Part shown: one piece after another, positions 19,158 to 21,342 of the stretch
Position numbering within the stretch: position 1 is the stretch's first letter
How the letters are laid out: each line of letters begins with the position of its first letter
Assembly (NCBI RefSeq): GCF_030518215.1
Contig: NZ_JAULRT010000062.1
Coordinates: 558,001-622,000, forward strand
Length of the DNA: 64,000 nucleotides
DNA from: Gilvimarinus algae
GTDB lineage: Bacteria; Pseudomonadota; Gammaproteobacteria; Pseudomonadales; Cellvibrionaceae
Direction: 5' to 3'
Program-made: the position numbers and the translations under genes
Notes under the pieces: generated by a model
Databases searched by the model: none
Seen by the model: the letters and a program-made list of their open reading frames with translations, nothing else
What the model was told of the DNA's origin: nothing

Positions 19158-19520
19158 TTAGACTCTCTGTAACGCTTTCTCCAGATCGGCGGTCTTGCGT
19201 CTGGCGAGCGCCAGATTGGCGGATTTTTTGTCCAGGACCAAATAGATAAACAGGCCCTCGTTCGAGGTGCTGGGCCGTATGATGTGTAGCTGGGTGTCCA
19301 GGGTGATCAGTATGTCCTCGATGCCGCCGTCGATGCCCAGACTTTTCATGGTTTTCAGTTTCGCTTTGACCACTTCACTGTTGCCGGCTGCCGCCAACTC
19401 CAGATCGACGCCGGCGCCGTCGGAGGCCAGCAGCATGCCGGTGGTGTAGTCCACAATAGCGCATCCAAGCGCTCCGTCAATTTCCATTAACCCTTTTTTA
19501 ATATCATCAAGATTGCTCAT
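19158..19520 (-). CDS. Roadblock/LC7 domain protein (distal copy)
   Basis: The protein has 120 residues and is a single Roadblock/LC7 domain: the N-terminal helix (LDDIKKGLMEIDGALGCAIVDYTTGMLLAS) leads into the beta-turn-beta, a long central helix (LELAAAGNSEVVKAKLKTMKSLG) and the last strands with LHIIRPSTSNEGLFIYLVLDK. GGAGAA precedes the ATG. Such proteins dimerise and act as partners or activating proteins of Ras-like GTPases (MglB for MglA). It is the last gene of the BLUF-GTPase-Roadblock operon, 29 bases after the other Roadblock gene, and differs from it clearly in sequence, so it is not a recent duplicate. Confidence 0.85.
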   Translation of the reverse strand: MSNLDDIKKGLMEIDGALGCAIVDYTTGMLLASDGAGVDLELAAAGNSEVVKAKLKTMKSLGIDGGIEDILITLDTQLHIIRPSTSNEGLFIYLVLDKKSANLALARRKTADLEKALQRV

Positions 19521-19549
19521 TGGCTTCTCCTTCTATGAACAAGTATTGC

Positions 19550-19963
19550 CTATACCGAGGCAATGGCGGAATCGGGTGTTAACTCATGAATCTCGTTGGC
19601 CAGTCGCGTGATCAAAAGGCGCAGGCTGGCAATGTTCAGCGACTGTTGCGCAGACATCACTAGCACGTAGTTTTTTCCCTGCAGCTCAAGATCGACGAAG
19701 GCGACGTTGCCCTGCTGCGCTTCGATAAAAGTAACCTTAAAGCGCTTACCCAGAATCTGTTGAGCCACCGCGTTACTGACAGAGTGAAGTGTGCTGGCCG
19801 CGGCGGACAAGCTGTCTTCTTCAATATTGTGGTTGGCCCGGTTGAGGGTGTATACCGGAAAACCGTCGGTGGTCGACAGAGAAATGACTTCAACCGCTTC
19901 GTTCTCCGCGTACTTTTCGCAGAGGGCTTTAATAGGCTTATGCAGGGTTTTATCAAATGACAT
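19550..19963 (-). CDS. Roadblock/LC7 domain protein (proximal copy)
   Basis: The protein has 137 residues. It is Roadblock/LC7-like: a strand with [16 protein letters not shown], a helix with [20 protein letters not shown], and the strands [23 protein letters not shown] at 19963 gives the natural protein start; the longer reading frame to 20065 would run through the GTPase gene in another frame. It overlaps the GTPase gene by 11 bases, so translation is coupled. It is probably the direct partner of the GTPase; with the second Roadblock gene it could form a heterodimer. Confidence 0.82.
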
Positions 19964-20528
19964 CTCTGTGTGCCTCCATCGGGTCGTGCACGGTGTCTTG
20001 CAGCGAGTCGAACAATTGCAACAACAGCAGAGAGGACTCCACCTCTCTCGGGTCAAGGCAGACAATCGGTGCTGTCACACCATTTTGTTCAAGGGCGTAG
20101 TGTAAAATATCAACGAACAGGTCAATTTGATCTTCGTCCGCAGCGAGGTCGCTGTGGGTCAGCCCAATTACCAGGGGCAACTGGTTTTTCATCGGGTCAA
20201 AATGATTCAGCACATCATTCAGGGCGCTGACGTTGAGCTCATCGTTGTATTTCACTAGAACCAATAGCCCCCATAAGCCCTGCTTGACCATATCCCAGAG
20301 CAGCTGAAAGCGCTTTTGTCCGGGTAGACCATAAAGGCCGAGCGCAATGTCGCTGTCCAGGCTTAGCCTGCCGTAATCGATACCGACAGTGGTGTATTCT
20401 TTGCCAATATCCACACTGGATTTTGCCTCTGTCACAAAAGGGGAGATCTCGCTGATGGTGTGCACCAGTTGTGTCTTCCCCGCCCCGACTTCGCCGACAA
20501 TGGCGAGTTTGTGATAAATCCTACTCAT
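19953..20528 (-). CDS. small Ras/SRP-beta-like GTPase (COG2229/MglA-like)
   Basis: The protein has 191 residues. The P-loop GEVGAGKT is at residues 12-19. The G2 region has the conserved [11 protein letters not shown]3 is atypical: GLPGQKRF in place of DxxGQE, so the switch II Asp is missing, as in MglA (TVPGQ) and COG2229 proteins. G4 is THSD in place of NKxD. Cytoplasmic, no lipidation motif. Family members are molecular switches controlled by Roadblock proteins, for example in cell polarity (MglAB) or Streptomyces conservons. It overlaps the BLUF gene by 8 bases and the Roadblock gene by 11. Confidence 0.85.
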
Positions 20529-21342
20529 GACCGGCGATTCCTTTGGCCCTGTGGTTGCTGATAAAACTGCGCAATGCCTGGCTGAATCGACCCCTGGCGG
20601 GAGCCGGAGCCTTGTTTTCCCGCTGTGAGCTCAATATGCGTAGATTGTCCGGCTCGGCCACGGCGATCACCTCTAGGGCTCTGGCCTGCTGTAATCGATG
20701 AAGCAGCTCTGTCAATTCCTGCTCATGAGCAAAGAGGTTAAGGGAAACCAGCCGCTGGTAGGGAACGTGCTTTTTAATCAGTAACGGACAAAGCTTCATA
20801 AGTGCGGCGTCGAGTCTTAGCTGAGTTGGGCGCGGCCAGGAAGGCATGGACAGTACCGTGTCGCGAAAAGGAGCGCTTTGCTCATGACTGTCGATTTGTT
20901 GCTTGCTGGTCGGCGCGCTGGTCTCCCCCATGTTAAAGAGCTTGTGATAGCGAATAGAGTCAATAGCGCCCGACAGGTTCAATCCGCCTTTTAACAGGTT
21001 TTCTATCTTTTTCAGGTGTTGTGCATGGGCGTCACAATTCTCGCTGAGCAGCTTTATCGACCAGCGACTGAACGCGGGCTTTTCGATGTGCTCGTTAACG
21101 ATAATGGAGACATCCGAGATTCTTGGGTCCCTGTTGATTCTGTAGATGACTTTTGCCAGCTCATTGGCTTCGCCTTCAGCCACTTGCAGCAGGATGTTTT
21201 TGAAGACTAGAAAGACGCCAACAATATCGTGCTCTTTGTTGTACACCCGCGCGGTGTCAAAGGTGTTGAAAACCTGCTCGGAGTAGCGATTATTATTGTC
21301 TGGCCCGTCGATGGAGCTTAAGCAGGCGATGCGTTTGAGCAA
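20521..21342 (-). CDS. degenerate BLUF-domain protein, first gene of a GTPase/Roadblock operon
   Basis: The protein has 273 residues. The first ~100 residues fit the BLUF fold: the strand [10 protein letters not shown], the helix ending in [14 protein letters not shown], and [24 protein letters not shown] with SRWSIKL closing. Asn35 and Gln53 sit 18 residues apart like the flavin-contacting Asn/Gln of AppA (45/63) or Slr1694. The essential photoactive Tyr is replaced by Cys7 in the best alignment, so light sensing is doubtful. The C-terminal ~110 residues ([17 protein letters not shown]...) are helical, possibly winged-helix-like, unrecognised. TTG start at 21342 with GAGGGA upstream. Confidence 0.75.

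Follow-up and report, generated by a model that had tools for sequence, protein, structure and literature searches.

We consider it rather probable that four adjacent genes of Gilvimarinus algae, located within the 64,000-nucleotide stretch of DNA analyzed here (the window), encode a G-protein switch complete in itself, which functions in the manner of the Group 3 MglA systems and receives its input through a domain that was once a blue-light sensor. The wider history, to which we give about even chances, is that, in a family of gammaproteobacterial operons, the winged-helix adaptor of a switch made up of a Ras-like GTPase and Roadblocks gained an intact BLUF domain in a single fusion event, creating a natural blue-light-controlled small GTPase, and that the lineage of the window is a light-blind descendant with a changed input. 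The idea put forward as new is that intact sister operons may be blue-light-gated Ras-like GTPase switches and the window copy a light-blind descendant of these. The genes, their synteny, the domains, the single acquisition of the fused BLUF domain and the residue states were read from the sequence or from a model. The odds of the rival explanations weighed below overlap with one another and with those of this best explanation.

All four genes lie on the minus strand, and all four reading frames are open. The adaptor gene (20521-21342) encodes an N-terminal BLUF-fold domain (about residues 1-118; 20989-21342), a low-confidence linker, a C-terminal winged-helix-like domain (about residues 165-228; 20659-20850) containing a WP motif, and a C-terminal helix. 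It is followed by the genes for a Ras-like small GTPase of 191 amino acids (19953-20528), the MglB-like Roadblock/LC7 protein 1 (19550-19963) and Roadblock/LC7 protein 2 (19158-19520). The operon is flanked by a glucokinase gene on the minus strand and an unnamed gene on the plus strand. An NCBIfam scan of the operon proteins, including Roadblock 2, gave no informative match. The promoter and terminator scan returned three and six sites, as compared to 2.4 (SD 1.5) and 3.9 (SD 2.1) in shuffled sequences; one of the six is a short minus-strand stem-loop at 19545-19564, between Roadblock 1 and Roadblock 2.

That these genes form one operon had been proposed by the sequence-only reading, which staked the claim on a shared gene order in other genomes. 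This synteny was found. Among 82 BLUF-type GTPase loci, 49 had enough flanking sequence, and 46 of these carried all four genes, while one part each went undetected at the other three (L079, L092 and L100). Two gene orders exist among the 46 complete loci, with Roadblock 2 upstream in 29 and downstream in 17; many of the 29 are from Psychrobacter, so the counts are not independent. The locus collections also overlap (L003 and L044 are one place), and redundant counts are labelled as such.

The nearest named relatives of the window operon, among the best 80 of 245 relatives, belong to Gilvimarinus. In the genome searches, relatives of the GTPase were found in 32 of 144 genomes of the family, 64 of 369 of the class, 54 of 299 of the phylum and 42 of 100 of the genus taken as Psychrobacter. 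The search scores split into two groups, and the high-scoring group (above 140 bits) was of the BLUF type wherever the neighbours were inspected. As read by eye from the tables, high-scoring GTPases occur in 14 of the family genomes, 4 of the class genomes and 1 of the phylum genomes, the last being the window's own genome; by GTPase score alone, 29 of the 100 Psychrobacter genomes carry 34 copies. A low-scoring GTPase was present in 13 other Psychrobacter genomes, and both types at full length in none of the 100 (one 21-bit fragment was seen). In the genome samples searched, the BLUF type is restricted to Gammaproteobacteria and patchy. The BLUF-type loci among the best 80 of 245 relatives carry gammaproteobacterial names except for L097 and L063, which come from a Verrucomicrobiales and an Eubacteriales bin that may be impure. 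A patchy occurrence, as in the 14 family genomes counted by eye, is what a functionless, decaying relic could leave behind, but the four open frames, the conserved gene set and a mean column identity of 69% for Roadblock 2 (50 rows) make a relic scarcely credible.

The adaptor had been described as a degenerate BLUF protein, which is borne out by its residues. In the window copy, Cys7 (codon 21322-21324) stands at the position of the Tyr of photoactive BLUF domains and an Ile at that of the His, while the flavin-site Asn and Gln, as well as the Trp, are kept. BLUF domains cannot run their photocycle without this Tyr. The local alignment with AppA begins at the Cys and may be off by one residue; the window copy has no Tyr there either way. 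The BLUF fold is intact in the predicted structure. At E-values of up to 1, each of the 48 BLUF-type adaptors matched Pfam BLUF (best 9e-27), as compared to none of the 30 other adaptors; the BLUF-type counts rest on a profile of the N-terminal domain, as a broader one drifts onto the shared winged helix.

Among 56 non-redundant BLUF domains, which take in three separate BLUF genes of Marinicella, the photochemical position holds Tyr in 33, Cys in 21 and Phe in one, and one domain has a truncated start (the Tyr call is absent for two loci with such a start). Asn, Gln, Arg and His are retained as well in 32 of the 33 Tyr-bearing domains, including those of Psychrobacter, Arenicella and others; at L014 and L096, the Tyr is present and the Trp absent. 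In the domains with Cys or Phe, the His is missing in 22 of 22 and the Gln in 8 of 22. With Tyr, Asn, Gln, Arg and His intact in 32 of the 56 domains, the operons concerned appear to supply a Ras-like GTPase with a blue-light input, whereas the Cys and the lost His suggest that the window copy is probably light-blind. The coupling of a BLUF protein to such a GTPase had been called unusual, and it is, but the many relatives with an intact BLUF signature had been missed; given these, the natural reading is that the light input was lost in the lineage of the window.

The same residues bear on two alternatives. If the window BLUF domain were a structural or dimerization scaffold only, with the input arriving through the Roadblocks or another protein, this would fit the loss of the Tyr in 22 of the 56 domains, every one of which lacks the His as well and eight of which lack the Gln. 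However, across the 48 adaptors the BLUF residue G57 is invariant and N35, G42, E56, D72, F91 and W94 are nearly so; together with the intact predicted fold, this suggests that a surface or pocket has been kept, and we hold a mere scaffold to be somewhat unlikely. Alternatively, the window domain could sense blue light by other photochemistry, for instance with the Cys in the role of the Tyr, in line with the retained Gln and Asn. The disappearance of the His from every Cys or Phe domain and of the Gln from eight looks instead like decay of the flavin site, and such a photochemistry appears highly improbable.

For the preferred reading, a BLUF domain fused once and blinded later, the order of events was taken from trees. 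A careful tree of 68 GTPases, with the GTPGQ sequences as the root, places the GTPases with fused BLUF adaptors in a single clade of 44 members (support 97/83), and the distribution of BLUF versus other adaptors needs a single change, a count that omits rows without a detected adaptor; a quick tree of 108 sequences agrees. For the 68-row tree, L101 and L102 (BLUF with Tyr, winged helix undetected), L126 and L127 (Tyr) and L060 (Cys) were relabelled by reading. The sequences thus indicate that the fused BLUF domain was acquired once. Tyr is present on the deep branches of the clade; its loss maps close to the base of the 22-row clade to which the window belongs (support 100/99), with a separate loss in L097. 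The placement of three Tyr rows (L012, L013 and L015) inside this 22-row Cys clade is poorly supported, and the fewest Tyr changes on the tree is three. The trees of the Roadblocks follow the split between BLUF and other adaptors with two changes for Roadblock 1 and four for Roadblock 2, as compared to 28-31 and 16-20 in five shuffles.

A second kind of association was seen in Marinicella. In the locus stretches examined, a separate BLUF gene with all tested residues is found directly upstream of the winged-helix gene, the GTPase and the two Roadblocks (L107 8157-8657, L115 5461-5898 and L119 6915-7352), which makes a light input to switches of this class more likely. At these three loci, a similar-looking gene precedes the separate BLUF gene each time. 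The fold and family, and in many sister operons also the residues, are those of the BLUF photoreceptors AppA, PixD/Slr1694, BlrB and BlsA, from which the window copy differs by the missing Tyr. In addition, the solved BLUF chains are cyclase, EAL and free BLUF forms, whereas here the domain shares its protein with a winged helix and is encoded next to a Ras-like GTPase.

The GTPase motifs are GEVGAGKT (G1), TTVGIDYG (G2), GLPGQ (G3), THSD (G4) and DPR (G5). The absence of the switch II Asp from G3 had been noted from the sequence and is confirmed. In G2, a Thr occupies the place where an Arg could stand beside the G2 Thr, G4 has no Lys and G5 reads D-x-R; H125, D159 and R161 are invariant in the alignment (21 rows). 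G3 is G[LV]PGQ in 82 of 82 BLUF-type GTPase ORFs (a redundant set) and GTPGQ in none. The 48 GTPGQ ORFs have a non-BLUF winged-helix adaptor in 42 cases and no detected adaptor in six. Non-BLUF winged-helix adaptors also accompany a further 15 ORFs with G-V-PGQ, which come from Marinicella, Kangiella and relatives; G[LV]PGQ is therefore not exclusive to BLUF-type loci.

The sequence-only reading named MglA-MglB and the Streptomyces conservons as the classical sets. Both are known, but the list was incomplete, as Group 3 MglA systems also exist. According to Wuichet and Sogaard-Andersen (PMC4316618), these occur in beta- and gamma-proteobacteria and consist of an MglA homologue, one or two MglB and a protein that is receiver-like at its N-terminus, has a winged helix at its C-terminus and is described there as of unknown function. 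By this description, the present operon shares with Group 3 the C-terminal winged helix of the adaptor, the single-domain small GTPase accompanied by one or two MglB/Roadblock genes, and the TT in G2, the missing Lys in G4 and the DxR in G5. It differs in that the adaptor N-terminus is BLUF instead of receiver-like, G3 is G[LV]PGQ instead of GTPGQ, two gene orders exist, and Roadblock 2 has no significant Pfam match. Since both the receiver-like domain and GTPGQ are lacking, the operon looks like a BLUF version standing beside Group 3 and not like a strict member. Profile hits were obtained to a Comamonas and a Neisseria gonorrhoeae locus; the sequences of the paper include Neisseria, Xanthomonas and Stenotrophomonas.

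Other known systems are more distant. Group 1 MglA, by the same paper, carries an Arg finger of its own in G2 and has TVPGQ as G3, whereas here TTVGIDYG has no Arg beside the G2 Thr and G3 is GLPGQ; unlike the Myxococcus and Thermus MglA/MglB systems of that group, the operon also contains a dedicated BLUF adaptor. With the actinobacterial conservons (AGPS; CvnA-D and Mfp) it shares the arrangement of a sensor, a Roadblock, a small partner protein and an MglA-family GTPase, but it differs from them in that no histidine kinase is found among the four genes. In the Mfp conservon, the Roadblock is described as a GAP and the CvnC-type protein as a likely GEF (PMC13343842). A comparison of the winged helix with DUF742 (CvnC) by hhalign gave probabilities of 1.3% and 19%, with a DUF742 profile built from only four sequences, and so does not establish homology to CvnC. 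On a Thermus thermophilus plasmid (L159 2357-4486), genes for a DUF4388 (PATAN) protein, a GTPase, a Roadblock and a protoglobin stand in a row, which suggests a gas-sensing version of such switches. Homology of the winged helix with a Thermus DUF4388 protein was considered and is unsupported by profile comparison.

By hhalign, the winged helix of the BLUF-type adaptors and the C-terminal domain of non-BLUF adaptors are homologous (probability 98.8%, E 1e-16), the order of helices and strands in the adaptor model fits a winged helix, and 115 of 122 GTPase ORFs have a winged-helix ORF in front of them. It could be that this domain binds DNA and that the GTPase and Roadblocks control the binding, in other words that the operon is a transcriptional system. 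For Group 3, such a DNA-binding, transcriptional role of the winged helix was suggested by Wuichet and Sogaard-Andersen (PMC4316618), and some non-BLUF adaptors match winged-helix/HTH models of Pfam (HTH_IclR in 2 of 30, best E 1.6e-4; DprA_WH in 1 of 30, E 3.8e-4). Among the families listed for the BLUF-type adaptors, on the other hand, the sole winged-helix name is WH4_Lhr, in 1 of 48 and with an E-value of 0.18, and the charge of the domain is near neutral, although this is uninformative on DNA binding. Nor did clustering of ORFs of at least 110 amino acids in the flanks of L044-L119 reveal an extra gene, and hence a target, at a fixed place across genera. We therefore regard a transcriptional system as unlikely. 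Flank clusters with at least three genus labels comprised a short-chain dehydrogenase (7 labels, 16 loci) and, as judged by eye, an RND-type transporter-like (4 labels, 5 loci) and a LysR-type regulator-like gene (3 labels, 10 loci). The dehydrogenase was considered as an output gene and judged spurious, as its cross-genus identity is about 25-32% (47% in one pair) and its distance varies.

The two Roadblocks are distinct proteins, as had been claimed. Roadblock 1 matches Pfam Robl_LC7 (E 7e-6), and its profile matches solved Roadblocks (E 6e-13), CvnB5 (E 2e-10) and MglB (E 0.001). Its Asp-Gly pair, D33 and G34, is invariant across 38 rows; in PMC4316618, this pair is noted for Groups 2-5. 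Roadblock 2 belongs to a strongly conserved family of 120 amino acids without the pair and has a Roadblock fold according to the predicted structure. A recent duplication was rejected as the origin of the pair of genes, as the profiles of Roadblock 1 and 2 do not align. Lone Roadblock 2 genes apart from a GTPase were seen in L047 (161-583) and L062 (5751-6176), resembling the orphan MglB of Group 3.

For the interactions, nucleotide effects, light response and output, we infer the following scheme from the sequences. The BLUF domain would be the input, and the winged helix of the adaptor would make contact with the GTPase or the Roadblocks, much as is presumed for the receiver-like adaptors, with the GTPase acting as the on/off switch. 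Roadblock 1, which carries the Asp-Gly pair, is the likely GTPase-activating partner that speeds up hydrolysis; as an analogy, Myxococcus MglB acts in a two-part GAP complex with RomY (PMC9481161). Roadblock 2 probably pairs with Roadblock 1 or scaffolds it, or links the switch to an effector. In the intact relatives from Psychrobacter, Arenicella and others, a flavin-based photoreaction would alter the adaptor and thereby shift GTP loading or hydrolysis. In the window lineage, the exchange of Tyr for Cys and the lost flavin-site residues should abolish the BLUF photocycle, and the domain may now be a light-blind input responding to protein interaction, redox state or a ligand.

The sequence-only reading had put forward polarity, motility, pili or adhesion as possible outputs; pilus-linked surface behaviour is at most a reasonable guess. 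In Snodgrassella, which has a Group 3 mglA, an orphan mglB mutation altered the colony edges in soft agar (PMC11112851), and PilT is present in the genome of the window. PilT is over the cut-off in 309 of 369 class genomes, namely in 64 of 64 GTPase-bearing (as judged by eye) and 245 of 305 other genomes (Fisher 7e-6, ignoring relatedness and genome size). It was nevertheless discarded as an output marker, being a weak one, since 60 of these 64 GTPase-bearing genomes are outside the high-scoring BLUF-type group.

No description of a BLUF-GTPase-Roadblock operon was found in titles and abstract openings of the open-licence literature, and no account of the Group 3 input signal in the open-licence literature surveyed. 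A photoreceptor input is a signal that can be switched at will, making the order of sensor, adaptor, GTPase, Roadblocks and output directly testable. If the proposal is true, these operons are a natural example of light control over a Ras-like GTPase. The loss of the Tyr in part of the family offers ready-made light-blind controls from evolution, and the window operon may document how light came to control a GTPase switch and how this sensitivity was later lost.

The operon occurs in several copies in some genomes, and 4 of the 100 Psychrobacter genomes have two or three GTPase copies each. In Agarilytica, a copy is located on plasmid pSU2; its record names the BLUF protein and one Roadblock, whereas the GTPase and Roadblock 2 are entered as hypothetical proteins. 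The whole four-gene set is present as a tandem copy in Psychrobacter sp. NZS113 (L081 597-5864), and another copy (L065 5280-5978) is near a gene that by eye reads like a plasmid replication initiator, which together suggests mobility.
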